From NCBI GenBank assembly GCA_026398135.1, contig JAPLTN010000006.1, forward strand, positions 1-64,000: 64,000 nt of DNA, in the 5' to 3' direction. The DNA is from Verrucomicrobiota bacterium (GTDB lineage Bacteria; Verrucomicrobiota; Verrucomicrobiia; Opitutales; Opitutaceae). Shown here piece by piece: positions 1-18,018 of the stretch. The first letter of the stretch is position 1. Each line of letters starts with the position of its first letter. The position numbers and the translations under genes were made by a program. The notes beneath the pieces are model-generated. The model saw only the letters and a list, made by a program, of their open reading frames with translations, ran no database searches and was not told the origin of the DNA.

Positions 1-1635
1 CAAGAAAATGCGGACCGCAGTTACGTGGGAACAATCGTATCAGGGAAGGGCTTCATACTAGATCCACATGAAGCAAAGCATATAGTAGCGCGAAACCCCA
101 AGTCAGGAGAGGTCATCAAGCCGTATGTCGGAGGAGAGGACGTTGTCTCGCAGCCCGACCAAAGCCCATCCCGTTTCGTGATAGATTTCGCAAATCTAGA
201 TGAATCAACGGCGGCGAATGATCATCCGGAGTGTTTTGCGATAACGAAAAATTTAGTCTTTCCGGAACGGGCGAAAGTTAAAAAGCAGGTTTACCGAGAG
301 AGGTGGTGGCAATTCGCAGAACGGCAAGTGAGGCTCTACCAAGCCATTTCAGGACAAGACCGCATAATGGTCGCACCTCAGACGGCCAAATGGCTTACAT
401 TCTCGTTCATCGAAACTGGAGCGGTCTACGCATTCGGGTTAGCTGTGATAACGAACTCGCGTTGGGATGTGCTGGCGACACTGCAAAGCACTCTGCACTA
501 CGAATGGGCTCGCAAGTATTCGTCGTCGCTTGAGACACGTCTTCGCTACACGCCGTCGGATGTTTTCGAAACATATCCTTTCCCCGAAAACTCGTGGGGC
601 ACCACTAACCCTGAACTCGCAGAGATCGGCGAGCGCTACCACAAACACCGCCGCGCCCTGATGCTCCGCCTCTGGCTGGGCCTGACCGACATCTACAACC
701 TTTTCCACGACCGCGACCTCACCCCCGCAGAAGTCGCCCGAGTGAGCAAAAAGCCCGCCGAAGCCGACGCCGGTTACGCTGGCATCCTGCAACTCCGTGC
801 CCTGCACCGCGAGTTGGACGAAGCTGTGCTCGCCGCCTACGACTGGGCGGGCCAAGTCGCCCTCGGCCACGACTTCCAAGAAGTCGAGACGCTCCCCGAA
901 AACGACCGCGTCCGCTACACCATCACCCCCGCCGCGCGAAAGGAACTCCTCCGCCGCCTCCTCGCCCTCAACCACGAGCGCGCCGCCGAAGAAAAAGCCC
1001 AAGCCGCGTCCACCCCCAAGACCGCCCAAAAACCCCGAGCCCCAAAAGCCCCCAAGCCCACCTCCGCCGACGAGCTTCCCGACCTCTTCGGCATTCCCGT
1101 ACCTGCTGAGATCGTGCAAGCGCCAATCACCTCCGTGCGTGCCTGGCAGGATGATGTTTTCCGCCATCCCCAGTCCAAACGTCACGCCAAGCTCGACGAA
1201 TCCATTTATGTCCGACTTTGGGTGCATGCTTCGCTTGCGCTACAACCCGAAGGCCTGACCGGCATCGAGCTTTTCAACGCGTTTCGCCTGCTCCTATCAC
1301 CGGAGTCCCGAAAACTCATCGCCAGCTCTGGCGACAGCGACGGCAAGAAGTGGAGCCACTCCTTCGACCAACCCGTCTCGCTGCTAGGCTTTTTCTCGTG
1401 CCTGATCAGCCTCGCGCAAAACCGCGAAATCGAGCGCCACACCACGGACGGAAAACACGTTTTCCGTCGCACCACCGGATGGCACGAATCCCCCTCCGAC
1501 TGGGTGCGTGCCGACGCCGAGATCACCCAACGCGCCCTGCTCGACAAGGCGCTCAACGATCAGCTCCTGCCATTCATCGAACCGACGCCACTAGTCATCA
1601 AACACGTTCAAGACCTCGAAAGAGCTTTTGCCTGA
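1..1635 (+). CDS. MmeI/Eco57I-like DNA adenine methyltransferase, C-terminal part (5' truncated by window edge)
   Basis: The frame is open from base 1, so the start lies outside the window and 544 residues are visible. They match the target-recognition and C-terminal parts of type IIG/IIL (MmeI, Eco57I) and BREX-like N6-adenine methyltransferases. A 'YVGGEDV' segment is followed by 'RERWWQFAERQ', 'VAPQTAKWLTFSF' and 'SSSLETRLRYTPSDVFETYPFPE', the usual end of the recognition domain. A helical segment ('RLWLGLTDIYNLFHD'), an Ala/Pro/Lys-rich linker and a further C-terminal domain of roughly 170 residues follow. The SAM-binding motif and the NPPY-type catalytic motif would be upstream and cannot be checked. 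The next gene starts 11 bp after the stop, so this is the first visible gene of the defence operon. It probably modifies host DNA, or modifies and cuts. Confidence 0.8.
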   Translation, partial: QENADRSYVGTIVSGKGFILDPHEAKHIVARNPKSGEVIKPYVGGEDVVSQPDQSPSRFVIDFANLDESTAANDHPECFAITKNLVFPERAKVKKQVYRERWWQFAERQVRLYQAISGQDRIMVAPQTAKWLTFSFIETGAVYAFGLAVITNSRWDVLATLQSTLHYEWARKYSSSLETRLRYTPSDVFETYPFPENSWGTTNPELAEIGERYHKHRRALMLRLWLGLTDIYNLFHDRDLTPAEVARVSKKPAEADAGYAGILQLRALHRELDEAVLAAYDWAGQVALGHDFQEVETLPENDRVRYTITPAARKELLRRLLALNHERAAEEKAQAASTPKTAQKPRAPKAPKPTSADELPDLFGIPVPAEIVQAPITSVRAWQDDVFRHPQSKRHAKLDESIYVRLWVHASLALQPEGLTGIELFNAFRLLLSPESRKLIASSGDSDGKKWSHSFDQPVSLLGFFSCLISLAQNREIERHTTDGKHVFRRTTGWHESPSDWVRADAEITQRALLDKALNDQLLPFIEPTPLVIKHVQDLERAFA

Positions 1636-1646
1636 AATTCTATCTT

Positions 1647-3680
1647 ATGGACACAGCCAACACTACGGTCCCCTCACTTGAACGTCGTTTTGAGCTGTCT
1701 CCCGAGAGACCTCACCCCGGTATCTTCGTCAGCGATTTCTATGTGCTTCGTTCTTTAGAAAAGCCGCGCCAACACATTCAGCGCCACGTCCAACTTCATC
1801 GCGGCCTCAACATCCTCTGGGCCGATCCCAATCCGCCCGAGAAAGCTGCATCGAAGAAACGCAGTAAAGTCGCCGGCCACACCGCCGGTAAATCCACCTT
1901 TTGCCGCCTCATCCGCTACGCCCTCGGCGACGTTAATTTCGGCAACGAAACCCAAGAGTATAAAATCAAAAACAAGTTCAAAGACGGCTGGGTTGTCCTT
2001 CGCGTCGAGGTCGAGGGCACGCCTTGGATCGTAGGCCGTGCGTTCATCGACCACGCCCAGCACTTCGCCATTCCTGGCGGCGACCTCGATGCTTTTCTCG
2101 CCTTGGAGACTGTGCCGAAGACCGGTTACGGCGACTTCGCCGGCTTGCTGGACCGCCACTTTATCAAGCCCCTCCTTCGCGACCGGTTTCCCGGCACAAA
2201 AGACGAGATTCACTGGCAGCATTTGATCCCGTGGTTCACCCGCGACCAAGAATCTCGTCTGCTCTCCATCATCACGTGGCGCGGCCCCATCGGCAAAAAT
2301 AACGCCATCAGCACCGACGCCGACGAACGTCATTACCTCATGCGCTTGGTTTTGGATCTTCTGCCCGAGGGCGAAGCCGACAAACTCAAGGAGCATGAAG
2401 ACCTCAACGAGCTGAAGCGCGAGTTGGACAAAGTTCTGCCTCTTACAAGCGCTCGCACCGACCAAGCCTTCACTCAGCTTACGGAGTGGTTCGAGACGAA
2501 GCTCGAAAAGCTCGAAGGCCCGCTCTACCTCAGTGCGGTAAAAGAGGAGCAAAGGCAAAAGCAGGAAGCAATAAACGCCCTCCGCCAAAGCATCCCGACC
2601 ACCAGCGAGGTAGAGACTCAGCGAAAAAAATGGGAGGAGGCTAAAAGCGCAGCCAGCGAAGCCGCCGCCGAGTTCAAGTCGGCCAAGCGCCGCGTCACCC
2701 AACTTGAGAAGGCCATCCGGGGATGCGAAGCACGTCTCATCGAGCAGCATTCTCAAGTTAACCGGCTGCGAGGAATGGCACCAGTCACCGTCTGCGGCAT
2801 GCCCATCGCCGAGGCCTGCGAGGCAGGCAAGAAGCACCACGCGGGCCGCATCGACATCGAGGCTGTCGAGGCGTTGCTGAAAATATTTGAGGAGGCAAAA
2901 TCCCAGGTCGAATCCGACCTGGCGGAGGCGTCAGAAAATGTGGCGGTGCAGCGATTGGCCAAAGACCAAGCGGAGGCCGCTGAGCGCGACGCGCAATCAG
3001 CTTATCTCACCCTTAACAGTCGAAGAGAGGAGAAGCTCGAAGAATACCTCCTAGCCAACGCCGAACAGAAAACACGAGAACGCCTCATCAACTCCACAGC
3101 CCAAGTCCTGACCCAGAAGACCCAAGAGGAGGACTCTCTCAAAATCGCGAAGAGCGAAATCAATAAGATCGGCGATGAAGAGGCGAAAGCGCGGAAAGAG
3201 AAGGCACCGGCACTCGGCCACTTCTCAGCGCTCTACGAACGCATCCTGCGCTTCATGCTCGAAGACGAGGAAGCGGTAGCCGACAACGAAAGAATCTACG
3301 GAGCCGTCCAGCACGATGGCAGAAAGCTCGAACTCACTGCCAACGGTCGTAACGACCTCGACAGCGGCGCGATCACCGCCGCCAAGCTCATCAGCTTCGA
3401 CCTAGCGGCGATGGTCTGGGGCATGGAGGGTAAGGGCCACCACCCACGCTTCGTGATTCACGACAGCCCCCGCGAAGCCGACATGGCCGAAGACATCTAC
3501 GCCGGCCTCTTCAACGTTGCCTTGGCCTTGGAAAAAGCCTGCGGCGACCAAAATAGCTTCCAATACATCGTCACCACCACCGCCAAACCACCGGGCGATT
3601 TCAACGGGAAGCCGTGGCGACTAGACCCGGTGCTCAACGCCTTGGTGCCCAAACAGCGAATTCTCGGACTAGATCTATAA
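1647..3680 (+). CDS. SMC/RecN-like coiled-coil ATPase of the defence operon
   Basis: 677 residues. A P-loop 'GHTAGKST' sits at about residues 77-84. A long, charged, Glu/Lys/Ala-rich coiled-coil region spans roughly 240-530, and a C-terminal ATPase half carries the Walker B-like 'FVIHDSPREAD' near residues 602-611. This two-halves-plus-coiled-coil plan is that of SMC/Rad50-like ABC ATPases found next to restriction-type methyltransferases. The middle of the coiled coil holds C383 and C391 (C-x7-C), where Rad50-like proteins carry their hook. The ATG at 1647 was chosen over an upstream in-frame start because it follows the methyltransferase stop by 11 bp. The next gene starts 1 bp after the stop. 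A role in DNA surveillance or loading of the downstream nuclease is inferred. Confidence 0.75.
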   Translation: MDTANTTVPSLERRFELSPERPHPGIFVSDFYVLRSLEKPRQHIQRHVQLHRGLNILWADPNPPEKAASKKRSKVAGHTAGKSTFCRLIRYALGDVNFGNETQEYKIKNKFKDGWVVLRVEVEGTPWIVGRAFIDHAQHFAIPGGDLDAFLALETVPKTGYGDFAGLLDRHFIKPLLRDRFPGTKDEIHWQHLIPWFTRDQESRLLSIITWRGPIGKNNAISTDADERHYLMRLVLDLLPEGEADKLKEHEDLNELKRELDKVLPLTSARTDQAFTQLTEWFETKLEKLEGPLYLSAVKEEQRQKQEAINALRQSIPTTSEVETQRKKWEEAKSAASEAAAEFKSAKRRVTQLEKAIRGCEARLIEQHSQVNRLRGMAPVTVCGMPIAEACEAGKKHHAGRIDIEAVEALLKIFEEAKSQVESDLAEASENVAVQRLAKDQAEAAERDAQSAYLTLNSRREEKLEEYLLANAEQKTRERLINSTAQVLTQKTQEEDSLKIAKSEINKIGDEEAKARKEKAPALGHFSALYERILRFMLEDEEAVADNERIYGAVQHDGRKLELTANGRNDLDSGAITAAKLISFDLAAMVWGMEGKGHHPRFVIHDSPREADMAEDIYAGLFNVALALEKACGDQNSFQYIVTTTAKPPGDFNGKPWRLDPVLNALVPKQRILGLDL

Positions 3681-3681
3681 A

Positions 3682-4968
3682 ATGAGCGGCAAACAAATGC
3701 ACATAATCAAAATACTCCGCGATCAAAACGATGAGATTGTAAACACGCTTTTAGAGGAGCTGCACAAACACGCCCCTAAATGCGCCATTCAAATTCCGTA
3801 TGACCTTGATAGCTACAGGCTTGGCGGCAAAGGCGACCTCCTGCAATTCCTTCTAACATGGAGCCGGAATTGCCCGGACGCACCAATATACACACACATC
3901 CAACCCAACGTATCCGACGAAGCGGCAAAAACACAGTTGGCAAGGCTGTTCTCACAAGAGCATGGGTTTATACTAGCGCTTTTCACTCGTGCATACGGGG
4001 TAGAATCGCCGCGTGCGTTCCTAAAAACAACCGGAGCCAAAATCGATGACCAGATAATCCACGAAGCACTAAGCTCTACAACAGCGTTCGCTCGCGGCAA
4101 GCCCATCACGAAAGGAACCCGAGCCTTCCTGGCAATTGACGACCTTTTGGATCAAGAAAACAAAGCGCTACGTGAATTCTGCCGAGTATACGAAAAACGA
4201 AAACTAGGCACGCATCTCATGAAAACTGAGTTCAAGGCGCTACTCGATGATGTATTTGAACGTCCAAGGAGTATCCATCGACGGTTCTGGTCTAAATACC
4301 AGCCCCCGCCGGACAATTTCACCGAGAAAGTAAGTGCAATAGCATATGAGCTATTCGAGAACGCGGATCGTTGGGGGAAACCGCCTTACAGCCGTTCCAT
4401 ACGGGGAATCTTGCTCCATTTGCACTATAGAGAAAGTGAAGGAAAACGTCCTCTTGTTGCAGAGGTTGGGATAAATTCACCTCTAAAAGATTACTTAAGC
4501 ACATTCCAGGGCGAAGATGGCTACGAGAGCACCCCATTTCTAGAGTTCTCCGTTTTCGACAACGGAATCGGCCTTGCAACGCAATTTAAAAATGGGAAGC
4601 CCCCAAGGTCCATAAAAACCGAATTTAACGAAACGATTTCATGTCTACTCTTCTCCTCCGGAAGCAGCTCAAAAGCCAGCGAAGGAAAGGGGCTTTATGA
4701 GTCCATGCTGCTACTAAACAGAGCGAAGGGATTCTTGCGCTACAGATCAGGGCGTCTCGATATATACAGAGACTTCCGCAAGGCCCCAATTCATGAGCCA
4801 GAGCTGCGATCACTTGAATTCGCGCCACCAGAAGAAAGACAACAGGCAATGAGAGACATCCTTTGCCTAGAGGATTGGGAAAATAGATCCCGAAAGATAA
4901 CGGAGAACCACAAAACTATCGGCGCCCTATTTACGATGATCATTCCGATAGGAGGATTGCGCCAATGA
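3682..4968 (+). CDS. GHKL (histidine-kinase-type) ATPase protein of the defence operon
   Basis: 428 residues. The C-terminal half has the Bergerat-fold motifs: an N-box-like 'ELFENADRWG' near 223-232, the G1 box 'DNGIG' near 293-297, and a G2-like 'GKGLYES' near 335-341 after a Ser-rich loop. No phospho-acceptor histidine helix or transmembrane segment is apparent, so it is more like MORC/Hsp90/MutL-type or defence-linked ATPases than a sensor kinase. The N-terminal 200 residues match nothing I recognise. It starts 1 bp after the SMC-like gene and overlaps the next gene by 4 bp (ATGA), which implies coupled translation. Base composition is clearly AT-richer than the flanking operon genes, which suggests separate acquisition with its partner. 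Confidence 0.65.
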   Translation: MSGKQMHIIKILRDQNDEIVNTLLEELHKHAPKCAIQIPYDLDSYRLGGKGDLLQFLLTWSRNCPDAPIYTHIQPNVSDEAAKTQLARLFSQEHGFILALFTRAYGVESPRAFLKTTGAKIDDQIIHEALSSTTAFARGKPITKGTRAFLAIDDLLDQENKALREFCRVYEKRKLGTHLMKTEFKALLDDVFERPRSIHRRFWSKYQPPPDNFTEKVSAIAYELFENADRWGKPPYSRSIRGILLHLHYRESEGKRPLVAEVGINSPLKDYLSTFQGEDGYESTPFLEFSVFDNGIGLATQFKNGKPPRSIKTEFNETISCLLFSSGSSSKASEGKGLYESMLLLNRAKGFLRYRSGRLDIYRDFRKAPIHEPELRSLEFAPPEERQQAMRDILCLEDWENRSRKITENHKTIGALFTMIIPIGGLRQ

Positions 4969-7226
4969 GTTTTTTATACTTCGAGAAGCATTCCACAACA
5001 CACCCTCGCCGTGAAGTTGTCTTTTTCTCTTCTCAAAACAGCATAACAACAGAAGAAGCATACCAGTCGATTGATGCATACTTTACTGCGGCACCGATAC
5101 CCGATGCAGTATTCTTCTTGGGATTTGAATACAACTTGGCGAGTCTAATAGCAGCTATCACGAACAATCGCGTAGCAAATCGAATCAGAACAACCGCGTC
5201 AACGCCTCCCAACCTGGCTTACTTCAGTAAGTCCGGCGCCCTTCTGGGAAGGCAAGGCGTGAACTACGAAACTAATCAGACGCTGCCAGAGGAGTTGATT
5301 AATACCCTCAGAAGTGCTGGCGCGATGCACATTTTCAAAAAGCACAAGGGAATGCTAGAATCGTCTGATTCCCATCACTACATCAAACCATCCCTGAAGC
5401 ATACTGATAAGTTCATTCGCACCGGAAATGTCTTATGCAACAGCCAGGAAGTCGATTTCTTGGCCGCATGGACACTGAGATGGATATCTCCGAACCTAAA
5501 TTACATTTATACTGATAGCTCGACAATTACATCACTTGCATACGCCTCAATTCTATTAATCGCGAAGCTGAATGCCGGGACCCCGCCGGCTATTTCCGTA
5601 AGGTGCTTTGAGTCATATCATTTATTACGGAACTTTGAATTTATTGATATTCGCAAATCCTTGGTGTATGTCTCCGCATCAACTGATGGCGCGATGCTAG
5701 CGTCCCTAAACCAAGAACACGGAATCAGTTCCGAACAGTTAATTACTGTATATTATCTCGGAAAAAAACCTCCGGTCGGGAACGTGATTTGCGATCTCAC
5801 ACGATCCGCAAGCAACCCAGATGGCTATGAGCCTGCACTTGTGACTCAGCCGGAATGCAGAGGCCAGTTTGCTCCGGGCTCCTTCGCCGTTCACATCACC
5901 TCTGAGTCCTTTCTGCCTGAGAATCCGGTGATCAAAGAAATACCGATACTAGTGAAGGATATACCGAATGACTGGGACGTGGTGAAACAGCACTTTATTG
6001 GAAACTCGTCAGTAAAATGCCACGTCCGTTGCGCCTCTCACGTGGACAGCACGCGTCCGCAACGACAAACAGTGGCGCTAGACATAGCTCCCGCTTTAAC
6101 GCCTGGTAGCGTTTTCTATGACAAGTATTGCAAGATACTTAAGGGCGCGATCCCGATGCATCTTAGCTTCGTGATCTACTTAGAAGACTCGGCCTCCGTG
6201 AAGATGAAACAAATCCTCCATGGGTTCCTGCCCGCACAACACCGCAAGAAAGTAAAATTCATCGCTGCTGCGAAGTTCACGAAAGCGAATGGCGCAATGC
6301 TATCCGTAAAGAAAGAGCAACGAGACGCGACGCTGGTAATCGCATCTTCGCTTTTGGACGGCACTCGATTACTCGATATTGCGCAGATACTTAGAGATAG
6401 GCAAAAAAACCACAATCTCACATACGTGATTGGCATCTCAGGATGTCGAGATGCCGCGGAGACAGTAGAATTAAAAAGCAATCTGCAATACTGTCAGAGC
6501 AAGCCGAATTATTCTCTTTTATGCGTCGAGGAGTTTCATGTAAGTCGGGACAAGCAGGCTGATACTACTCCATGGAATACCGAAATCGAATTCTGGCGTT
6601 CAGTTTTACCTCATTCCAAGTGGTTCACTAAATTTCCAGACGCACGCAAAATAATCGCGGCACGACTAGCGACCCTAGAGCGGGTAGACCGCGATTATTT
6701 ACCGGAAGACGATTTATTTCTCCCAAGAAGCCTTGATTCTCACGGCTGCCTGACGCTTCGTCCGAATTCAGTTTTCACTGAGGGGCTTTGTGTAACAAAG
6801 TTTTCCCAAGCAGATGTGTTTCTAGCTGCGTCAAAACTACTCCATGAGATGAGGACACGAGCCAGTCCGAAGGCAAAACTGGCTCAGCACCCCCATATGA
6901 GGGCTGTGCTGTCTCCTAAGCTTTTTTTCCGATTCAGCGACGGCGTGATACAAGCTGCCTTCCTTCGCGCGTCGCACCCTGAAGAGTTTGACTATCGAAT
7001 GGACGCTGAACTTAGCAAGGCAGCCGCAGGGATCATCTCGAACATCTTATCTTGGCCGTCAAATCCGCGTGCTGAGGCTCTAACTGAGTTTTTATACGCG
7101 ATTGCTACTGATAAACTCCGACTACTTAAGCCAGATCGGCTTGGTGTGGTTAGCATAATTGAGCAACGACTACCAAAGAGACATCATCTGGAACGCCTTC
7201 TTTGTGAATTTATAAGGAGCAAGTAA
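4965..7226 (+). CDS. Unknown 753-aa protein with possible phosphoribosyltransferase-like segments
   Basis: I do not recognise this family with confidence. Two stretches look like degenerate phosphoribosyltransferase/Rossmann-type cores. The first, near residues 175-260, pairs 'YIYTDSSTITSLAYAS' with 'SLVYVSASTDGAMLASL'. The second, near 395-480, pairs 'LSFVIYLEDSASVKMKQIL' with 'DATLVIASSLLDGTRLLD', which resembles the hydrophobic strand followed by the D/S-x-G-T PRPP loop. No metal-binding nuclease motif, signal peptide or membrane segment is evident. The start overlaps the GHKL gene by 4 bp, and AT-rich codon use matches that gene rather than the later mcrBC genes. The two probably work as one unit. 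The PRTase reading is inference and could be wrong; an unrelated alpha/beta fold is possible. Confidence 0.55.
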   Translation: MSFLYFEKHSTTHPRREVVFFSSQNSITTEEAYQSIDAYFTAAPIPDAVFFLGFEYNLASLIAAITNNRVANRIRTTASTPPNLAYFSKSGALLGRQGVNYETNQTLPEELINTLRSAGAMHIFKKHKGMLESSDSHHYIKPSLKHTDKFIRTGNVLCNSQEVDFLAAWTLRWISPNLNYIYTDSSTITSLAYASILLIAKLNAGTPPAISVRCFESYHLLRNFEFIDIRKSLVYVSASTDGAMLASLNQEHGISSEQLITVYYLGKKPPVGNVICDLTRSASNPDGYEPALVTQPECRGQFAPGSFAVHITSESFLPENPVIKEIPILVKDIPNDWDVVKQHFIGNSSVKCHVRCASHVDSTRPQRQTVALDIAPALTPGSVFYDKYCKILKGAIPMHLSFVIYLEDSASVKMKQILHGFLPAQHRKKVKFIAAAKFTKANGAMLSVKKEQRDATLVIASSLLDGTRLLDIAQILRDRQKNHNLTYVIGISGCRDAAETVELKSNLQYCQSKPNYSLLCVEEFHVSRDKQADTTPWNTEIEFWRSVLPHSKWFTKFPDARKIIAARLATLERVDRDYLPEDDLFLPRSLDSHGCLTLRPNSVFTEGLCVTKFSQADVFLAASKLLHEMRTRASPKAKLAQHPHMRAVLSPKLFFRFSDGVIQAAFLRASHPEEFDYRMDAELSKAAAGIISNILSWPSNPRAEALTEFLYAIATDKLRLLKPDRLGVVSIIEQRLPKRHHLERLLCEFIRSK

Positions 7227-7272
7227 CCCGCTGCAAATGTAATACATGCTACGATAAATCTTACCACCGCCC

Positions 7273-9516
7273 ATGGCCCGTAAAACTAACAAAAGCGACC
7301 TCGCCCCCGTCCTCGCCGCCGCCAAGCACTGGATCGACCGCTGCCTGGTCGGAGACCAATCGCTCTTCTTCGACGAGGTGCTCTGGACCGAGGCCAACGC
7401 CGCCGAACTTCAGCAACACTTCGTCGAAAATCCCGACGAATCTGACCTCAGCTTTCTTAACAAACTCCCCAACCAGCTCGCCGCTGCCACTCCGGCGGCG
7501 CAGCAACTCATGGCCGAAATCTTTTGGGCCATCCGCCTTTTCCCCACGACGCCAAAAGCTCCCACCAAACGAGCGCAATTCCTCCAAGTTTGGCAGCTCT
7601 GCGGTCGGCCCCTTGTCCACGAGCACCCCATGCTCAGCTCTGCCGCTCTGGACGGAATTGGCAGTGCTGGCACCGCCTACCTCACCGGCCCATGGCGCGA
7701 AATCGCCTTTCTCATCAAGGCCCTCCTTCAATTGAAACTTCTATCACGGGAGGAGCGCGCGGCGCTCTTCGCCAGCAACGATAAGCTTTCACCGTGGCTG
7801 GAGGCGCTGGTCGAAAAGGGTGAACGGCAGTTTACGCATATCCTCCGCTACTTCGCCTTTCCCGACACGATCGAGCGCATCTCATCAGGCCCCGAGAAGA
7901 AAAAGATACTCAGGGGCTTTGGCGTGCCTTTCTCCAATTCATGGACTGCGCTCCAAGTGGATCAGGCCCTTTTAGAACTTCGCCACAAACAGGAAGCTGA
8001 ACATCCCGGACTCGTTCTCGATTTCTACGATCCACCGCTCGACACGAAGTGGAAAAAGCCAAAAGCACCGAAAGGGGACGCCGAAGCCGAGGACGACGCC
8101 GATGATGTGGAGCCCAATGACGTCTTGGAAGAGCCGTCACCTTCGCCTACCGAACCAGACCAAGCTACCAACCGCATTTTCTACGGTCCTCCAGGAACGG
8201 GAAAAACCCATCGTTTACGCGAACTTTTCCCCCGCTACACCGAAACTCCCGCAGCTAAAAACCGCGATGCTTGGCTAGAAGCCCTTGTTGCCGGCTGTGG
8301 ATGGCGCGAGGTAATCGCCGCGGCGCTCAGTCAATTGGGACCGTCTGCTGTGCCAGCACTGAGGAACCAGGAGCTAATTCGCGCCAAGGCTCGACAACGC
8401 AGCACCGATAAAAATCTGGGCGCTCGCCTATGGGGCACCTTGCAGCGACACACCCCGCTGAACGTCCAGACAGTAAACTTCGGACTGCGCGCAGAACCTT
8501 TCATTTTTTCCAAAGACGAAGAGAGCACGTGGTCTTTGCTCCTCGATTGGACAGTGCGGGACGAAGAAGCATCCAAACTCGCAACCGATTACCTAGCCGG
8601 GCAAAAGTCAGCCCCGCCGGTAAAGCGCTACCGCGCCGTTACCTTCCACCCCTCCTACTGCTACGAGGACTTCGTGCGTGGCATCCGACCGGTTAGCACC
8701 GAGGAGGACGGCCGAACCGAATTCCGCCTCGTGGACGGCGTATTCAAGCAAATCTGCGATGAAGCCCGCGCCAACCCCACCAAGCGTTATGCCCTCTTCA
8801 TCGACGAGATCAACCGAGGGAACATCGCCAAGATCTTTGGCGAACTCATCACCCTGATCGAACCGGACAAACGCATCACCGTCGCCCCTGACGGCACCGT
8901 CACCGGCGGCATGACCGTTCAGCTTCCCGGCAGCAACACTGGTGAAGTCGCCGAGCCGCCCTTCGGCGTCCCTGCTAACCTTGACCTCTACGGCACGATG
9001 AACACGGCAGACCGCTCCATCGCGCTTCTGGATATCGCCCTGCGCCGCCGCTTCGAGTTCGTCGAAATGCCGCCGCTAACGAATGCCACAGTGTTTCCCG
9101 CTTCCGTGGATGGCGTGGATCGCGGTGCGCTGCTCCGACGCATCAACGACCGCCTCGAATACCTCTTGGACCGCGACCACCGCATCGGCCACGCCTACCT
9201 AATGAAGGCCAAAAGCCTCGCCGACCTGCGCAGCGCCTTCGCCAATCAAATCATCCCCCTGCTCCAGGAGTATTTCTTCGACGATCTCGGCAAGGTCGCC
9301 CTCGTCCTAACCGGTGCTAATGGCCGCAGCGAATTCGTTGAGAAAAAGGACCTGCGTCACGCCGATCTCTTCCCGGGCGATACCTCGCGCAACACCACCG
9401 CCAGTCGTCATCGCTACGAAGTCACTCCACCCGGCACGTGGACAGCGGAGCACTTCCAAGAGATTTACGCGACCGCGACGGCCGTCGAAGACACCGAAGA
9501 CGAAGCAGCCTCCTGA
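7273..9516 (+). CDS. mcrB: McrB-type AAA+ GTPase/ATPase of a McrBC-like restriction system
   Basis: 747 residues. The N-terminal 290 or so residues form an uncharacterised, probably DNA- or protein-recognising domain that ends in an acidic linker. The motor follows: Walker A 'GPPGTGKT' near 305-312, Walker B with the McrB signature 'LFIDEINRGNIAKIFGEL' near 506-523, and the 'GTMNTADRS' sensor segment near 573 followed by an arginine-rich 'ALRRRF'. McrB hexamers use nucleotide hydrolysis to drive cleavage by McrC at modified or otherwise marked DNA. The N-terminal domain does not obviously match the E. coli 5-methylcytosine reader, so the mark read here is unknown. McrC follows 8 bp after the stop. 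The 46-bp upstream gap is the only real break inside the operon. Confidence 0.88.
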   Translation: MARKTNKSDLAPVLAAAKHWIDRCLVGDQSLFFDEVLWTEANAAELQQHFVENPDESDLSFLNKLPNQLAAATPAAQQLMAEIFWAIRLFPTTPKAPTKRAQFLQVWQLCGRPLVHEHPMLSSAALDGIGSAGTAYLTGPWREIAFLIKALLQLKLLSREERAALFASNDKLSPWLEALVEKGERQFTHILRYFAFPDTIERISSGPEKKKILRGFGVPFSNSWTALQVDQALLELRHKQEAEHPGLVLDFYDPPLDTKWKKPKAPKGDAEAEDDADDVEPNDVLEEPSPSPTEPDQATNRIFYGPPGTGKTHRLRELFPRYTETPAAKNRDAWLEALVAGCGWREVIAAALSQLGPSAVPALRNQELIRAKARQRSTDKNLGARLWGTLQRHTPLNVQTVNFGLRAEPFIFSKDEESTWSLLLDWTVRDEEASKLATDYLAGQKSAPPVKRYRAVTFHPSYCYEDFVRGIRPVSTEEDGRTEFRLVDGVFKQICDEARANPTKRYALFIDEINRGNIAKIFGELITLIEPDKRITVAPDGTVTGGMTVQLPGSNTGEVAEPPFGVPANLDLYGTMNTADRSIALLDIALRRRFEFVEMPPLTNATVFPASVDGVDRGALLRRINDRLEYLLDRDHRIGHAYLMKAKSLADLRSAFANQIIPLLQEYFFDDLGKVALVLTGANGRSEFVEKKDLRHADLFPGDTSRNTTASRHRYEVTPPGTWTAEHFQEIYATATAVEDTEDEAAS

Positions 9517-9524
9517 CCGCCCCA

Positions 9525-10826
9525 GTGTCTTTTCCCGCGCTCACCGCCTTCGAGCATGAGGCCATCCCGGTCACACCGGGCGGTGGTCCCCGTGCTCTGT
9601 CCGAGAACGAGGCTGAACAGCTGGCGCTCATCGCCGAGAGCCTGCCCGGTTTCTGTTCGCGTGGTTACCGCTCAATAAAGCTCAGCGAGCACTGTGGGCT
9701 TTTGAATCTCGGCGGCCGTATCCTCGAAATCCTCCCCAAAGCGGGCGAGCACCCCGACGCGGCACAGGGGCGCGGCGTGCTGCTACGCATGCTGCGAGTC
9801 GCGACCGACCTCCCGCTCCATCGCCAAGACGCCGCCGTGCAGACCGACCGTCACGCGCCGCTGCTGGAGATATTCATCCGCGCCTTTTTCGAGGAGGTGC
9901 TCCTGTTGCTGAAGGGTGGCCTGCTGCGCCGCTACACCGAGCGCGACGAAGACCTCTTGGCCGTGCGCGGCACGATCCAGCTCCAGCGCCAGTTCACCAC
10001 GCTCGCCAATCGCACCGACTTTGTTGCCTGCCGCTACGACGAGCTAACGCCCGACAATCGCTGGAATCGCCTCCTCAAGGCCGGGCTCAAAATCGTGCGG
10101 CCGTGGATACGAAGCCCGGACCTTGAGCGGAGCTGGATCGAACTCTTCGCGGCCTTTGAGGACGTAGGCGATGAAGCCCGCCCCCGCGCCCTGCTCGACG
10201 GCCTGCGTTACGACCGGCAAGCCACCCGCTACCGCCCCGCGATCCAGTGGGTGGAGCGCATCCTCAACCTTCTTTCGCCCGATCTACGCTCCGGTGCCAA
10301 GCCCGCCCCTGGCCTGCTCTTCGACATGAACCTGCTCTTCGAGCGCGTGGTCGAGCAACGCATGGCCCGCTGGGCGTCCGAGTGCGGCTGGATCATGGAA
10401 ACGCAGGACACCAGCCGTTACCTCGCCGAGATTATATCAGAACCCAAACGTCGCGCCTATCAAGTGCGGCCGGATCTCGTTTTCAGATACCGGGGTCAAG
10501 TGGTCGCCATCGCCGACGCAAAATGGAAACGCCCGGACGTCAGCACGCGCGGTTTTATCCTCCCTGCACAGCCCGACCTATACCAACTCCACGCCTATTC
10601 GGCGGTGTTTAAATGCAGCCAGCTCGCCCTGATTTATCCGTGGAGCGAGCGTTTGCACACCAGCCGGCCCACCGTCTTTGAACTACCGGGCGATGAGGGA
10701 ATACGCCCTCGTGTCACAATCATCGCGCTCGACCTTACGGATGACCAATTCCCTTTGAGAATGAACCCGGCCGAGGGGGAATGGGCCAAGGGTAGGCACA
10801 TGCCTGTCCGACCCCTTGTGGCATGA
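9525..10826 (+). CDS. mcrC: McrC-type PD-(D/E)xK nuclease subunit
   Basis: 433 residues from a GTG start at 9525, 8 bp after mcrB. A longer frame that overlaps the mcrB end exists but adds only Arg-rich shadow sequence. The N-terminal half has the McrC-like 'LLNLGGRILEILPK' strand region. The C-terminal nuclease domain shows 'RPDLVFRY' near 315 and 'AIADAKWK' near 328-335, which is the PD-x(n)-D-x-K signature, followed by the McrC-typical 'QPDLYQLHAYSAVF'. It would supply DNA cleavage once activated by McrB. The last bases overlap the DUF445 start by 4 bp, so the downstream membrane protein belongs to the same transcript. Confidence 0.87.
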   Translation: MSFPALTAFEHEAIPVTPGGGPRALSENEAEQLALIAESLPGFCSRGYRSIKLSEHCGLLNLGGRILEILPKAGEHPDAAQGRGVLLRMLRVATDLPLHRQDAAVQTDRHAPLLEIFIRAFFEEVLLLLKGGLLRRYTERDEDLLAVRGTIQLQRQFTTLANRTDFVACRYDELTPDNRWNRLLKAGLKIVRPWIRSPDLERSWIELFAAFEDVGDEARPRALLDGLRYDRQATRYRPAIQWVERILNLLSPDLRSGAKPAPGLLFDMNLLFERVVEQRMARWASECGWIMETQDTSRYLAEIISEPKRRAYQVRPDLVFRYRGQVVAIADAKWKRPDVSTRGFILPAQPDLYQLHAYSAVFKCSQLALIYPWSERLHTSRPTVFELPGDEGIRPRVTIIALDLTDDQFPLRMNPAEGEWAKGRHMPVRPLVA

Positions 10827-12142
10827 TCAGGCGAACCTCTGCAATGTCACCTACCCCAAGACCTAACCGAGTCGGTATCGTATCTCTCTCCATCGCCGCT
10901 GGCGGTTTCATAGCGCTGGAGGTCGCTAACCACTGGCACCTCATCGAAGGCACAAGTTGGTCTGTGGTGCGGGCAGGCTTCGAGGCGGCAGTTGTAGGCG
11001 GTGTAGCCGACTGGTTTGCTGTGTCGGCTTTGTTCAAACCCGTGCCTGGCGGACGGTTGGCCCTACCGCATACCGACATCATTGTGCGCAACCGGCACAA
11101 GCTGACCGACGGCGTGGTGGACCTGGTGGAAAACCAACTCCTAAGCCCTTCGTCGGTGAGGGAGAAGCTTCGTGGCTTTTCGCTTAGTAAGGTTCTGTTT
11201 GAACAATTCGATTCCCGTGACGGGCGTCAGCTCGCCGCCTCGACCTTAAGCGTCCTTGCGGGTCACGCGGCAGCGGAGTTGGAAGACGCAAAACTTCGTG
11301 GTTTTCTTACTCAACTCCTGCGAGAGCAAATCCGGACGGCTAAACTCGCGCCGTTGTTCGCATCCTGGATCGAAGCGCGCGTCGCTGCAGGCGACACCAG
11401 AGTGCTTTGGCAGACAGTCGCCGCCACCTTGGCCGATCAGGCGGAGCGGGGGGATTTCGACGAGCTGCTGCGTGAAATCGTTCAATCAGGTTTGGATGCG
11501 TATAAGGGCGAACTGTCCGGTCTGGCTAAGGTCAAGGGCTGGATTGCATCGGCCGCATTTGATGCGGAGACGGATGGTCGCCGTCTCCGCGTCGGGTTGA
11601 GCAAGACGTTGCGCGATATGGCCATTGATGCATCGCATCCATTCGCCGCTCGATTGGACAAAGCAGTCCTGGCCTATGCTGCCAACTTGCACGTCGGGGA
11701 CAACGAAGCCGCCGAGCGCGTCCGAGACTTCCAAGAAAGATTGGCAACGCATCCTGACCTTGAAGACGTGGTCGGCCACATGCTGACCGACCTACGCCGC
11801 CTAGCGGAAACGAAGCTACGCGACTCACGGGGGGAGTTTGAGACTGCGCTAGCCGACTTGATTGAGCGTGGACTGACGAAGCTTCGCGGAGATGAGGAGG
11901 CAAAAGCACGACTGGATCATTGGGCACGGGAGTCGCTCGGCAGCATCGTCACCCGACACCACGGCGTGATCGGCACGACGGCGCGCGAGTCGCTAAACCG
12001 CCTCGATGATCGCGACCTCGTTGCGCAGCTAGAAATGAAGGTTGGCAGTGACCTCCAGTACATCCGCTTAAATGGAGCGGTGATCGGCGGCTTGGTCGGC
12101 GTGGTCCTCATGGCCACCAAACTTCTTTTAGGCTCCACGTAA
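10823..12142 (+). CDS. DUF445 (YjiN-like) membrane protein coupled to mcrC
   Basis: 439 residues. One hydrophobic segment lies near the N-terminus ('IVSLSIAAGGFIALEVA') and another at the extreme C-terminus ('GGLVGVVLMATKLLL'), with a long soluble helical region between. 'GGVADWFAVSALFKPVPG' near residues 55-72 is the hallmark of the DUF445/YjiN family, whose function is unknown. Its ATG overlaps the mcrC stop (ATGA), and an internal Met at residue 8 is an alternative start. In E. coli K-12 a family member, yjiN, also lies in the chromosomal region that carries mcrBC, which hints that the link may be more than chance. A membrane-associated effector or anchor role is speculation. Confidence 0.8.
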   Translation: MIRRTSAMSPTPRPNRVGIVSLSIAAGGFIALEVANHWHLIEGTSWSVVRAGFEAAVVGGVADWFAVSALFKPVPGGRLALPHTDIIVRNRHKLTDGVVDLVENQLLSPSSVREKLRGFSLSKVLFEQFDSRDGRQLAASTLSVLAGHAAAELEDAKLRGFLTQLLREQIRTAKLAPLFASWIEARVAAGDTRVLWQTVAATLADQAERGDFDELLREIVQSGLDAYKGELSGLAKVKGWIASAAFDAETDGRRLRVGLSKTLRDMAIDASHPFAARLDKAVLAYAANLHVGDNEAAERVRDFQERLATHPDLEDVVGHMLTDLRRLAETKLRDSRGEFETALADLIERGLTKLRGDEEAKARLDHWARESLGSIVTRHHGVIGTTARESLNRLDDRDLVAQLEMKVGSDLQYIRLNGAVIGGLVGVVLMATKLLLGST

Positions 12143-12211
12143 ACCTCGACCTCTTGTCCGATCACACATCTGCATACGATGCACAGTGACTGAGAAAGCC
12201 CGACTTATTCA

Positions 12212-12299
12212 CGTGAAGGAGCTACACCAATTACGTGAAGGAGCTACACCAGTTTACGTGAAGGAGCTACACCAAGGGCCGCGTGAAGGAGCTACACCA
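12212..12299 (+). repeat. Four plasmid-type iterons (candidate oriV)
   Basis: Four direct copies of the 18-mer CGTGAAGGAGCTACACCA start at 12212, 12234, 12257 and 12282. Their start-to-start distances are 22, 23 and 25 bp, close to two helical turns. Identity extends by a few bases (TTnA before, A/G after) in most copies. This is the layout of iterons bound by RepA-type initiators, and a RepA-like gene lies 2.8 kb away on the same element. The 12143-12421 gap has no gene; it also holds AT-rich sequence after the iterons and a G-run near 12410. Confidence 0.85.
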
Positions 12300-12421
12300 G
12301 AGACGAGGTACTCCTATAGTTTAAGAAACATATAGAAAAGACATATAGGGAAACCGGGGAACGCCTGCGGCGGTCCCCGTCATACGGCTACTAGGAAAAG
12401 AAAAGCAGGGGGGGGGCGGAT

Positions 12422-14320
12422 CTAACCGCGTTTTATTACCCTGCGCGTAGCGGTGACCGAAGGTAGCGGAGCATCGTTGTCAGCAACCACCGACGGTTTC
12501 ATCCGGTTTCGGCTCAATTCGACCGTTTCTGCACGCAATAGGTCATTCCAATCCTTGATGGCCCAGCCACTCAGAAGCGGCACAACACGGCGCAGACGGG
12601 CTGCAAACTGGGCGCCCCAGCCACGTACACGCTCCAAGACATGGTGCCATCCCCTATCGCCCGCAGAATCGCGATCTAAAGCCACGGTAACGGGTATTTG
12701 GTTATCGCGGGCAAGCTCTAGCGCGCAGTCAGGCACAACGCTGCCAGCGACACTTACCACGCGTGCGCGCTGGCTCCGCTGATAGTAGGAAAGCGCGTCA
12801 ACGGGTGACTCTACGAAAACTAACTCTTCGGCATCCACTATTGTCGGACCCACGGCAAAAAATGCTGTTAGTTTTTCACCCAGCGCTCGTTTGGGTCCGT
12901 CCAGGTCGTCCAGCGCTCGCAAGGTGGCCCCCTTCGTTTGGCCCTGAATGTCGAGATGACGAAACACGCACCAAGTGCGCGGCCCTTGGTCTCGCTGACG
13001 CTGAAAACTGCCATGCAATAGTCCGGCACGGATTTGCTCATCAATCAGCGCCGCGGATAGCCCGCGTGTTGTGACAAGATATTCACGCGCTAATTCCGTG
13101 GCCCGAGAATCAGGTTTAGCGAAGTAAGTCCAAAGTTCGGTAAAACTCTTGCGCGGGGCGAGTGCGGCGTAGTGGTCGGCGGCAACGCGGACGGCAGCTG
13201 CGACCTGCACCTGCGACCACTGGCCGGCCAGCCAGCCGACTGCATCAGCAAATCCGCAGGACATGACGTGCATGGCAAGATCGATAGCCTTCCCTCCGCC
13301 TTTACCTGACTTGTGGTCATACCACTTTGCGCCGGTAACCGAAATCGCATGCTCGCCCGTGCGCCAAATCAGTGTTGAGCCTTCTCGTTCGCCGTCGCCC
13401 CAACCAAGACGTGCCAGCACATCCGAAAGGGGTATATCACGAACCAAGTCGGACAGCTCTCGAAGCGAAGTTCGAGTCGTTGCGAGATCAGTGGCTAATT
13501 TTTGGTTAGTGCGCTGTTGGCTGCGAACTGTTCGTTGAAGTTCGCGTGCTGCACTAGCCGCGAGGCGAGCACTGGTTGCTTTTTGTGACAGTAAAGCGAG
13601 CTGTTCGTTCGCCGCCGCACTCACCCTTTTCGAATAATCTGATGTGGATTCGAGAAGTGCTTTCTCAGGCGCAGAAAACTTTGGCGGGTTAACCTCTGAT
13701 TCCTTCGTTACCGACTCAGTGACTTGCCCGTAGTAGGATTTTAGCGTGCGGTGTTCAGCTTGGCTACCTCGTACGCCACGTTCCAAGCCAAGCGACGATA
13801 GTTTTTTCGCGTAGGCATCTTGCTGACGAACCAACGATACGGGATTGAATAACTTTTTCCCCGATAGCCAAACCGTGCCATCACGCGCCGGAGCAAGAGG
13901 GACAACGTAAGCTGCGACATGGGGCGTTTTTTCGTCGAGGTGTAGCGTCGCGGAAAGCAGGTTTTCACCAAACTCTTCGCGTAACCATTCAAGACTTATG
14001 CGCGTCCATTCTGCGATGAGGTTATCGCGATGCAAACCTGGTTGAGATTCGTCGAAAAACTCAGGCGACGCACCGAGAAATAGCTCCTGAACGAGCACTG
14101 CTTCCCGCTTACGTTTCGCATCACGCGTGACCAATTCCCATTTCGCGAGAAACGCATCAGAGGTTGGGATTAGGCCCTCGAAACCAAAGAGCTGGCGGTT
14201 ACATGGAGTGCGCGAAGAGTCCGCGTTGGGTGTAATGCGTGTACGCGCATTGTGCGCGATACTACCTCGAATTGCACTAGGTGTTTTCAACTTGGCCACG
14301 CGATAAATTACAAAAGGCAT
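12422..14320 (-). CDS. MobV-type relaxase fused to DUF3991/Toprim primase-like domain
   Basis: 632 residues from the ATG at 14320; a GTG at 14335 is an alternative. The N-terminus resembles Mob_Pre relaxases ('YRVAKLKTPSAIRG...HNAR'). The metal/catalytic motif 'HLDEKTPH' near residues 127-134 fits the HxDExxPH signature of MobV. A coiled-coil stretch of about 70 residues follows. The C-terminal half resembles the DUF3991-Toprim part of plasmid primases, with 'WYDHKSGKGGGKAIDLAMHV' and a Toprim-like 'VFVESPVDALSYY' followed by 'VALDRDSAGDRG'. The protein would nick oriT and might prime the transferred strand, as in MobA-RepB fusions of mobilisable plasmids. It lies downstream of a hairpin cluster (14427-14552) that may be its oriT. 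Confidence 0.82.
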   Translation of the reverse strand: MPFVIYRVAKLKTPSAIRGSIAHNARTRITPNADSSRTPCNRQLFGFEGLIPTSDAFLAKWELVTRDAKRKREAVLVQELFLGASPEFFDESQPGLHRDNLIAEWTRISLEWLREEFGENLLSATLHLDEKTPHVAAYVVPLAPARDGTVWLSGKKLFNPVSLVRQQDAYAKKLSSLGLERGVRGSQAEHRTLKSYYGQVTESVTKESEVNPPKFSAPEKALLESTSDYSKRVSAAANEQLALLSQKATSARLAASAARELQRTVRSQQRTNQKLATDLATTRTSLRELSDLVRDIPLSDVLARLGWGDGEREGSTLIWRTGEHAISVTGAKWYDHKSGKGGGKAIDLAMHVMSCGFADAVGWLAGQWSQVQVAAAVRVAADHYAALAPRKSFTELWTYFAKPDSRATELAREYLVTTRGLSAALIDEQIRAGLLHGSFQRQRDQGPRTWCVFRHLDIQGQTKGATLRALDDLDGPKRALGEKLTAFFAVGPTIVDAEELVFVESPVDALSYYQRSQRARVVSVAGSVVPDCALELARDNQIPVTVALDRDSAGDRGWHHVLERVRGWGAQFAARLRRVVPLLSGWAIKDWNDLLRAETVELSRNRMKPSVVADNDAPLPSVTATRRVIKRG

Positions 14321-14426
14321 AATAAGGATGAGCACCCGTGCGATGAGTGCGCGGGCAGGTTAGGAAAATGCGGCGCAAATTGTGGCTGCGCGCCGCCAGC
14401 AAAATGACGCGCGGAGCGCGCAATGA

Positions 14427-14552
14427 CGTCGCTTCAGCGACGAATGGGGTGCAGGGGCCGCGGCCCCTGCCTCACGCCCGTCGCTCTGCGACGGGATACC
14501 ACCCCAAGCGGAGCGGGGGTGGTATAGTGAGTATACCTGTAACTACAGGTAT
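14427..14552. promoter_or_regulatory. Cluster of five inverted repeats upstream of the relaxase (candidate oriT)
   Basis: Five hairpins lie within 126 bp: CGTCGCT/AGCGACG at 14427-14442; the perfect 20-bp palindrome at 14451-14470; CCCGTCGC/GCGACGGG at 14477-14495; ATACCACCCC/GGGGTGGTAT at 14496-14525; and ATACCTGTA/TACAGGTAT at 14533-14552. They sit between the small-protein genes and the relaxase start, where MobV plasmids carry oriT. Some may instead be operators or a single-strand initiation site. The nick site cannot be read by eye. Confidence 0.55.
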
Positions 14553-14562
14553 CTCAGAAAAA

Positions 14563-14844
14563 CTACTTGGAGGAAGAATCTTTATTATCACCGTCAGTTC
14601 GTGCGAAGTGCGCAGACCATTGGAGCATCTTTAAACGAAATTTTCGCGACCTTTCCCTTCGTTGCCGCCATCGTTTTCCGTTGCGCACAAATTCATCGAT
14701 CGCTTCACAAATTGCATCTCTGGCAACCTCGCGCGCTATTACCTTAAAAATCATTTCCGCGCGCGTTATGACCACGGGGACAAGATCTGAATTAGGTAGA
14801 ATTTTTCGCGATTCTTTATCCAAAAACTCTGCGATGGTTGTCAT
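14563..14844 (-). CDS. Small plasmid-module protein, unknown
   Basis: 93 residues, unrecognised. It begins 'MTTIAEFLDKESRKI' and has a central hydrophobic helix followed by a strongly basic tail ('RWRQRRERSRKFRLK'), which could bind nucleic acid. Its start overlaps the upstream small gene by 4 bp, so both are probably co-transcribed with RepA. The N-terminus weakly resembles the neighbour's 'MKTIPEILTEVA', as if the two were distant paralogues. An accessory relaxosome or copy-control role is possible but not shown. Confidence 0.5.
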   Translation of the reverse strand: MTTIAEFLDKESRKILPNSDLVPVVITRAEMIFKVIAREVARDAICEAIDEFVRNGKRWRQRRERSRKFRLKMLQWSAHFARTDGDNKDSSSK

Positions 14845-15080
14845 GTGGACTTAGGGTTTAAGATGGAGCCATGTCCGGGGTTAATCGCCGATGATTTGAT
14901 CGGCGGCCTTGGTAGTGCTGGCCGATATTGCACGACTGACCTCCGTAACGCGCGCAATGCTCGTGTACGAGCATCGCGTTCAAGGAGGTCCGCCGCTTGT
15001 CGGAGGACCTCCGAGGAGAAGGTGGTTCCGGGATAGTTTTCGCCCGCCACTTCTGTTAATATTTCCGGTATGGTTTTCAT
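14841..15080 (-). CDS. Small plasmid-module protein, unknown
   Basis: 79 residues from the ATG at 15080; an upstream start at 15098 adds six residues. It begins 'MKTIPEILTEVAGENYPG' and contains a helical 'RQAADLLERDARTRALRALRRS' segment. Beyond the weak likeness to its downstream neighbour I cannot assign it. It ends by overlapping that neighbour's start by 4 bp and lies 34 bp after the RepA stop, consistent with a repA-small-small transcription unit. Confidence 0.45.
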   Translation of the reverse strand: MKTIPEILTEVAGENYPGTTFSSEVLRQAADLLERDARTRALRALRRSVVQYRPALPRPPIKSSAINPGHGSILNPKST

Positions 15081-15114
15081 GTTTTTATAGCCCCGCAACT
15101 CAGCGGGAAATTGG

Positions 15115-16005: not shown

Positions 16006-16294
16006 TTGATGCCCCCGAGGATTGAGCGTTAATGTGTTCTACAAGGCTGCGTAAAGAAATAAGTCTGATGCCGCGTTGAGACCCGTTTTTCCGCAAAACG
16101 AAGCTGCGAACAGGTGGTCGAAACTTGTTCCCGACATTAGGGAGCACTAATTCATTGAGAGTGCTGCGCGAAAGCCCCGTTATAGCGCAACGGTAGCCCG
16201 GGTGAGGCAATCTGACAAACTCAGGAGTCGTTGCGACAGGCGGAGGATTGGCACCCAAGGAGGTATGCGGAGGTTTATTCATGTCGCCGAACAT
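15989..16294 (-). CDS. Small helix-turn-helix (AlpA/excisionase-like) protein
   Basis: 101 residues from an ATG at 16294; Met5 at 16282 is an alternative start. The segment 'RLPHPGYRCAITGLSRSTLNELVLP' followed by 'VRSFVLRKNGSQRGIRLISLRSLVEHI' fits the DNA-binding helix plus beta-hairpin of AlpA/MerR-like excisionases, where a residue such as R or K in 'SRSTL' enters the major groove. It is first in the repA unit. It could act as the excisionase for the neighbouring tyrosine recombinase or as the regulator of repA; the sequence does not decide. Confidence 0.55.
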   Translation of the reverse strand: MFGDMNKPPHTSLGANPPPVATTPEFVRLPHPGYRCAITGLSRSTLNELVLPNVGNKFRPPVRSFVLRKNGSQRGIRLISLRSLVEHINAQSSGASSERAE

Positions 16295-16650: not shown

Positions 16651-16740
16651 TTTCATAGCCAGCGCTACACCTTTTCTTGGGTAGCTGGGATTTATCCGAA
16701 AACCAATGACGTCATTAGCACAGATTCCGACTCCTCAGCC

Positions 16741-17904: not shown

Positions 17905-18018
17905 GTTCAAATTTAGTTCTACCAAAAGTTCTACCTGACGTGGATGTTCACCGAAGTCTAGGTTTATCTTTTACATAGGTGTCTGGACATCCCTGAACAC
18001 CTAGAAACGTCTTGGATA

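Follow-up and report, generated by a model that had tools for sequence, protein, structure and literature searches.

The PDC-M65 gene pair of a Verrucomicrobiota bacterium: a predicted GHKL ATPase and a partner with predicted phosphoribosyltransferase-type folds in a variable slot of a restriction-type operon

The gene pair, its family and its relatives

This study deals with two adjacent genes, named here A and B, in a stretch of 64,000 nucleotides from a Verrucomicrobiota bacterium (GenBank assembly GCA_026398135.1, contig JAPLTN010000006.1, positions 1 to 64,000), referred to below as the window. Both open reading frames (ORFs) are intact, lie on the same strand and overlap by 4 bp (gap -4), in agreement with an earlier model-made reading of the DNA without database searches, the sequence-only reading, which had described a GHKL ATPase gene overlapping the gene of a 753-residue protein with two weak phosphoribosyltransferase (PRTase)-like cores. 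Compared with the PADLOC models, A matches PDC-M65A over residues 6-423 and B matches PDC-M65B over residues 5-750, while neither protein has a match in Pfam at E <= 1 or in NCBIfam at E <= 0.1. Judged by these near-full-length profile matches and the shared gene order A then B, the window pair is a divergent member of PDC-M65, a family catalogued as a defence candidate. The coordinates of all features discussed are collected in Table 1.

Table 1. Features of the window, and thymidylate synthase genes adjoining the pair in related loci (positions of each locus).
Feature	Position	Strand	Basis
Gene A, GHKL ATPase (PDC-M65A), 428 aa	3682..4968	+	PADLOC PDC-M65A E 7.8e-38; AlphaFold2 pLDDT 83.8
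N-terminal alpha/beta region of A, residues 1-140	3682..4101	+	DSSP of model
GHKL domain of A, about residues 200-428	4279..4965	+	motifs 52/52; VIA Z 10.9 to SpoIIAB
Gene B, double pseudo-PRTase protein (PDC-M65B), 753 aa	4965..7226	+	PADLOC PDC-M65B E 4.2e-126; AlphaFold2 pLDDT 88.9, pTM 0.83
B core 1, predicted PRTase-like fold, residues 115-311	5307..5897	+	VIA Z 11.4 to 4paw (HP1257)
Core 1 PRPP-type loop, degenerate, residues 233-242	5661..5690	+	register inferred from core 1-core 2 alignment
B core 2, predicted PRTase fold, residues 334-525	5964..6539	+	49/50 VIA rows, Z 10.6-11.9
Core 2 PRPP loop, degenerate, residues 456-468; A460-S461 vs D-D of PRTases	6330..6368	+	60-row conservation
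B C-terminal domain, residues 530-753	6552..7223	+	16 conserved positions
Large N6-methyltransferase, C-terminal part; N-terminus past contig edge	25..1635	+	DrmMI PDLC02643 positions 1024-1339, E 6.1e-96
SMC-like DUF2326 protein, host operon	1572..3680	+	PF10088 7.7e-07; LmuB 5.5e-21
McrB-like AAA protein, neighbour gene	7273..9516	+	PF07728 2.3e-09; PRK11331 3.8e-34 (below PRK11331 cut-off)
McrC, neighbour gene, start uncertain	9438..10826	+	PF10117 4e-63
ThyX (FAD-dependent thymidylate synthase), L006	6625-7563		
ThyX, L007	6747-7697		
ThyX, L008	6654-7592		
ThyX, L058	7577-8563		
ThyX, L047	12134-13069		

The assignment extends to the relatives. All 52 A homologues of alignment A4 match PDC-M65A and no other model at E <= 1e-5, and all 60 B homologues of alignment A3 match PDC-M65B, at 16-29% identity between the window copy and the aligned relatives. 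The PADLOC models of PDC-M65 carry no description. We take PDC to stand for "phage defence candidate", a phrase that co-occurs with PADLOC in the literature, and the family presumably stems from the Payne 2024 preprint. This preprint is cited in the portions available of two papers on defence pairs (PMC12255303; PMC11411939). A term search of the PADLOC web server paper gave no mention of PDC, and in the open-licence literature, which leaves out most preprints, we found neither a paper naming PDC-M65 nor a printed account of what is new here, namely the fold of B, its lack of the PRPP-binding acids, the map of conserved residues and the context of the slot. PDC-M66 is termed a "predicted functional system" in an excerpt of a paper on retrons (PMC12548924). 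DefensePredictor, in whose accessible part PRTase and HATPase appear as figure abbreviations only, has a PRTase system that may or may not be kin to PDC-M65.

The relatives comprise 92 loci, made up of the best 80 of 126 species-genome relatives, two viral contigs, nine plasmids and the window. When the species-genome contigs were queried with B alone, no relative was obtained, and the alignment query succeeded; tblastn of B found nine of 72,556 plasmids and none of 50,697 phages. In 89 of the 92 loci, the gene immediately 5' of B is an A homologue, with B present by construction in the genome loci, which were located through a single B motif; in the remaining three (L031, L062, L069), a contig edge lies within about 190 bases of the start of B. 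Measured from longest-ORF starts, the gap between the genes runs from -88 to +29 in 88 of these 89 loci, and in L004 it is 405, the N-terminal part of B being annotated there as a separate gene. The order A then B thus recurs in 88 loci outside the window operon, so that independent occurrences of the pair, which the sequence-only reading had left to be sought, do exist. In 35 whole genomes known to hold B, each A adjoins a B, and a single genome has A twice and B twice (extra rows for G392, G409, G420 and G421 were split matches of one gene and were joined). Locus L016 belongs to genome G390, and when 249 genomes of the family of G390 were queried with A only, four were found, all with B adjacent. 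Neither these 35 genomes nor this family search contained an orphan A or B, and the pair is absent from all 14 control genomes. The distance matrices of A and B over 52 loci correlate with r 0.94, which none of 999 permutations reaches (maximum 0.16). A and B form a strict two-gene unit.

Within its own phylum, the pair was found in one of 387 genomes searched, that of the window itself. Relatives are scattered across Pseudomonadota, Bacteroidota, Acidobacteriota and Planctomycetota, and in the tree the window copy is nearest to a metagenome-assembled Planctomyces genome with a support of 86, on a long branch that makes its placement unsure. The pair is also AT-richer than the genes around it, as had been noticed from the sequence: A has a GC content of 0.480 and B one of 0.473, as opposed to 0.583 for the methyltransferase fragment, 0.570 for the SMC-like gene, 0.592 for McrB and 0.634 for McrC, and the GC content of third codon positions (GC3) is 0.499 and 0.491 as opposed to 0.667, 0.686, 0.686 and 0.753, respectively. 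Among 34 greedily chosen window ORFs of at least 250 aa, B ranks lowest in GC3 and A third lowest, a low GC3 that is not peculiar to the pair, as RepA (0.498) and Mob (0.528) of the same region share it. Because the scattered taxa and the base composition fit it, horizontal movement of the pair appears a suitable description. A scan for promoters and terminators around the pair gave no more signals than shuffled sequence.

Protein A

The assignment of A to the GHKL ATPases, made from the sequence at the outset, is borne out by invariant motifs and by a Bergerat-type fold in the model. The ATP motifs comprise the N-box with E223 and N227, the G1 box D293-x-G295-x-G297, and G335-x-G337-L338 with the G2 box, every named residue of which is conserved in all 52 members. 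In the AlphaFold model, the N-terminal region is of alpha/beta type and the chain ends with the GHKL fold. With VIA-align, the closest solved fold to this domain is SpoIIAB (1th8, 1l0o; Z 10.9, 3.2 A over 131 residues), followed by a histidine kinase (Z 8.6) and topoisomerase VI-B (Z 8.2). SpoIIAB is small, with 132-141 residues in these entries, whereas A adds the N-terminal region and a PRTase-fold partner. Other searches gave weaker signals: the best E in Foldseek was 0.04, Pfam HATPase_c matched nine of the 52 members at E <= 0.1 (best 0.0075), and a sequence search of the PDB with the A profile gave two matches, the better of them at E 0.0022 to a tumour necrosis factor (TNF)-induced protein. 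From its motifs, A is very likely an active ATPase. For the N-terminal region a STAS domain was considered but not supported (profile comparison E 0.16), and A has no Pfam match at E <= 1 to an H-box or DHp domain of histidine kinases, although the fold search barely covers this region.

Protein B

In the AlphaFold model, B consists of two alpha/beta cores preceded by an N-terminal region and followed by a C-terminal domain of helices. A structural match to PRTases, proposed earlier as the check on this protein, was found by two methods. Foldseek against the PDB gave four rows at E <= 0.001 (2.4e-4 to 9.9e-4, probability 1.00), all of them UMP synthase, HP1257 or orotate PRTase (OPRT); the best row spans two domains at a high root-mean-square deviation (rmsd), and a few unrelated folds of lower probability enter the list from E 2e-3 upward. 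With VIA-align, all 50 rows listed are PRTases, and 49 of them start in the region of core 2, with OPRT, adenine PRTase (APRT), hypoxanthine-guanine PRTase (HGPRT) and other PRTase structures as targets. The model thereby firmly predicts a PRTase fold for core 2. Core 1 has fewer matches, its single row being HP1257 (169 aligned residues, 4.2 A). The matches in a viral structure library were a mixture of helicases and some PRTases, for the most part with a long rmsd, and were uninformative.

At the level of sequence, Pfam Pribosyltran matches one of the 60 B members (E 0.063), and a search of PDB sequences with the B profile returned nothing at E <= 10. Using hhalign against 28 PRTases, core 2 reached E 0.0055 and core 1 E 0.11, with 0.0077 for an unrelated STAS control; core 1 against core 2 gave E 0.0035. 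Because this kinship is not significant against the control, the PRTase fold is taken from the predicted structure. Of the two cores suspected from the sequence, both are thus retained as predicted folds, core 2 more firmly than core 1, and the sequence on its own does not carry either.

True PRTases carry two adjacent acids in the loop that binds phosphoribosyl pyrophosphate (PRPP). In the core 1 loop, no adjacent D/E occurs within residues 234-242 in any of the 60 members, and no acid stands at 460 or 461 in the core 2 loop in any of them, the register of the loops being taken from weak profile alignments of core 2 to PRTases and of core 1 to core 2. In core 1, the positions in question read S-A-[ST] in most members, in core 2 they are mostly A/G-S/G, and three of the 60 (L045, L057, L072) carry two acids side by side further along the core 2 loop (457-466). 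Because the acid pair is absent at the expected places, we call B a PRTase-fold protein and not a PRTase, and the loss argues against ordinary PRTase chemistry, which is probably gone from B. The role of a nucleotide-handling effector or sensor, suggested from the sequence, is plausible.

The conservation is unevenly distributed. F150, R152, D184, S217 and S237 of core 1 are invariant in all 60 members, as is F316 just beyond residue 311; in core 2, a single position (R477) is kept in at least 57 of the 60. The C-terminal domain has 16 such positions, including W537, E540, R567, R656, R668 and E708, of which six fall in the search motif and were hence selected for. In alignment A1, which holds ten sequences, nine of them relatives found by tblastn without the motif, the same 16 positions are kept in 8-10 of the ten. 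This distribution points to core 1 and the C-terminal domain as the probable working parts, with core 2 in a mainly structural role.

Genomic context of the pair

In the window, the pair starts directly after the stop of the SMC-like gene, which lies 1 base before A, and B is followed after 46 bp by McrB and further downstream by McrC. As the window starts at base 1 of the contig, the operon is truncated upstream and the methyltransferase gene is partial. The window belongs to a group of seven of the 92 loci with a helicase-methylase core; L013, L076 and L027 have a methylase match only, which is short in L027. Three plasmid relatives contain, in this order, a large helicase, an SNF2 helicase, a methylase and a DUF2326 SMC-like gene, followed by an HNH gene in two of them and by none in the third. 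The methyltransferase fragment resembles DrmMI of DISARM; among the six other proteins scanned none matches DrmA, DrmB or DrmC, the upstream genes being past the contig edge.

The pair had been read as interrupting a methyltransferase-SMC-McrBC run, and this view did not hold. Relatives of the SMC-like gene were found in 12 other genomes of the phylum, and ten stretches from nine of them were extended. None of the ten contains a McrB or McrC homologue (BLASTP E <= 1e-4), so that McrBC is rejected as part of a conserved host run, and none contains the A-B pair; the position 3' of the SMC-like gene is a variable slot. In the five stretches whose slot genes were family-scanned, it holds a UG5-nitrilase defence reverse transcriptase (DRT, 7114-10182) and then HNH (L115), a DUF6236 protein (6320-7402) and then HNH (L116), DrmA (L117), a 766-aa protein with no match in either PADLOC or Pfam (L122, 8192-10492), or a 311-aa protein, a GmrSD-like gene related to HEC-06/Orf5 (9393-11273) and then HNH (L123). 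The pair of L014 occupies the same slot as in the window; next to it come a gene whose product weakly matches NERD/UvrD and an HNH gene. The pair thus sits where relatives carry other defence-type genes, and this slot may hold undescribed defence modules. In another methylase-SMC operon (L023), the gene directly upstream of the pair (7506-8450) encodes a protein without Pfam match that strongly matches a further PADLOC candidate, PDC-S54 (1.3e-131), covering positions 97-407 of its 410-position profile.

The second setting is that of type I restriction-modification (R-M) operons. Type I R-M genes are present in the fetched DNA of 15 of the 92 loci, and PADLOC type I models confirm all ten tested proteins, which come from eight of these 15. 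In nine loci, two of them near-duplicates, no more than 110 bp separate the pair from same-strand hsd genes, and in L086 the pair lies between hsdS and hsdR. Among the 122 immediate neighbours, six match a type I endonuclease and five a type I specificity subunit at E <= 1e-10, in a tally that covers the best 25 of 321 families. Counted by distance from the pair, the hsd share is 13 of 235 genes in the first 1 kb, then 2 of 112 (1-2 kb), 9 of 246 (2-4 kb), 6 of 256 (4-6 kb), 5 of 228 (6-8 kb) and 1 of 101 (8-10 kb).

Apart from these, ThyX adjoins the pair in five of the 92 loci, all of them in Hyphomicrobiales, upstream in L006, L007, L008 and L058 and downstream in L047. A literature search on ThyX, phage defence and nucleotide depletion returned no ThyX paper among the matches listed. 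On the Pseudomonas aeruginosa plasmid pBJ86 (L005, 7812-16403), the pair is located just upstream of genes annotated as the Qat anti-phage system, and on a plasmid of Rhizobium NZLR1 (L007) its flanks (1-5885 and 11362-19126) hold a dGTPase gene, a multiubiquitin-ThiF cluster and several genes with TIR domains. In the window itself, a Mob_Pre/Toprim relaxase-like gene, a plasmid RepA_C gene and a phage-type integrase stand in a row on the minus strand (12422-17925) next to the defence genes, so that an integrated element of plasmid type may carry the defence cluster.

Comparison with known systems

Defence pairs inside type I R-M operons are described, in the parts available, for DarTG2 (PMC12255303) and TgvAB (PMC11411939), and DarTG2 of enteropathogenic Escherichia coli (EPEC) E2348/69 is placed between hsdS and hsdR, like PDC-M65 in L086. 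The proteins differ, as A and B show no sign of DarT/DarG or GmrSD in Pfam. Control of a defence effector by a GHKL ATPase is proposed in an excerpt on VcSduA, a GHKL-type Shedu protein (PMC12137116), which has an N-terminal GHKL domain and a DUF4263 nuclease in one protein, whereas A has its GHKL domain at the C-terminus and neither A nor B has a Pfam match to DUF4263 at E <= 1. PRTase effectors are, according to the portion available, typical of type III retrons (PMC12548924), which share with PDC-M65 a PRTase-like protein in phage defence. However, retrons need a reverse transcriptase and a non-coding RNA (ncRNA), whereas the partner in PDC-M65 is a GHKL ATPase; none of the seven PADLOC-scanned proteins of positions 25-12142 matches a reverse transcriptase, a search that took in neither the rest of the window nor ncRNA.

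Interpretation

What the computation shows is that the genes are strictly paired, that A is a GHKL ATPase, that B has predicted PRTase-type folds lacking the PRPP acids, and that the pair is repeatedly embedded in two unrelated restriction cores. We consider it quite probable that A and B constitute one two-gene defence module. The pair would be a self-contained, horizontally moving anti-phage module in a variable slot of a restriction operon. In the mechanism that we propose, A would bind and hydrolyse ATP and act as a conformational switch on B. B would no longer transfer phosphoribosyl, and core 1, with R152, D184, S217 and S237, would provide a putative site for a nucleotide or a PRPP-like metabolite whose level would change during infection. 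Binding of this ligand, together with the ATP state of A, would expose the conserved C-terminal domain, the putative effector, and the added ThyX of some Hyphomicrobiales would restore thymidylate or check the trigger or the damage. This complete scheme of switch, ligand sensor and C-terminal effector is tentative, and we lean slightly against its holding in every part. The notion that PDC-M65 is a metabolite-sensing defence, in which the GHKL ATPase gates two dead PRTase folds acting as a receptor for a nucleotide metabolite, is doubtful at present. Given that ThyX accompanies the pair in some loci and that the fold of B is OPRT-like, a ligand from nucleotide pathways is the first guess. In the metabolite-sensing notion, the candidates would be orotate, PRPP, a base altered by the phage or a pyrimidine nucleotide, and the C-terminal effector would fire when infection disturbs the pool.

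Several points weigh against this interpretation. The defence role of PDC-M65 is a computational prediction, the genome loci were collected through a motif of B, and 70 of the 92 loci have neither type I R-M nor the methylase/SMC core in the fetched DNA, some of which is short. The fall-off of hsd genes with distance is not smooth, as the middle bins show, and the ThyX link is limited to Hyphomicrobiales, with four of the five loci being close relatives. Within B, the PRTase fold of core 1 comes from one of 50 VIA rows and has no sequence match, ligand binding by this modelled core is putative, and the C-terminal domain is a candidate effector by virtue of its conservation, part of which was selected for by the motif. 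Neither a nuclease domain nor a known effector domain of another kind turned up in the pair.

The same evidence bears on other explanations. B could be an active toxin derived from a PRTase, transferring glycosyl or nucleotidyl groups through a site formed by core 1 and the C-terminal domain and checked or delivered by A; the invariant R152, D184, S217 and S237 could be its catalytic set, which the C-terminal E540, R567, R656, R668 and E708, all outside the search motif, could join, and the PRTase effectors of type III retrons provide a precedent, as far as that paper's excerpt goes (PMC12548924). The absence of the PRPP acid pair at the expected positions of both loops in all 60 members and of any enzyme family matched by sequence makes this unlikely. 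MutL- and MORC-type GHKL proteins can act as clamps, and A and B might accordingly be accessory subunits of type I R-M or helicase-methylase-SMC machines, for example an ATP-driven clamp or regulator. The operon-like spacing, with hsd genes close by on the same strand in nine loci and 1 bp to the SMC-like gene in the window, would suit such a role, as would the clamp-like middle domain reported, in the part available, for GHKL Shedu (PMC12137116). However, the fetched DNA of 70 of the 92 loci has neither of these machines, the host cores have no relation to each other, other defence-type genes fill the same slot in relatives, and the chain of A ends with the GHKL fold in the model, so that we regard an accessory role as rather improbable.

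It would be more improbable still that the pair regulates the nucleotide pool or pyrimidine salvage and merely rides on mobile elements with no part in defence. The fold of B is closest to OPRT and APRT, ThyX adjoins the pair in five loci, and a dGTPase gene is the next one downstream on the opposite strand in L007, all of which would be in line with such a function, but the pair is rare and scattered (none of the 386 other genomes of the phylum, four of 249 in the family of G390), hsd genes are denser near it than at 8-10 kb, and the 14 control genomes do without it.

For PDC-M65, an anonymous entry in a list of candidates gains folds for most of both proteins, residues that are probably important and a slot context, which makes it directly testable, and the 3' end of helicase-methylase-DUF2326 operons becomes a place to seek further defence modules. 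If the metabolite-sensing model were true, PDC-M65 would be a nucleotide-pool alarm derived from an enzyme of nucleotide synthesis and a new kind of metabolite-sensing defence.

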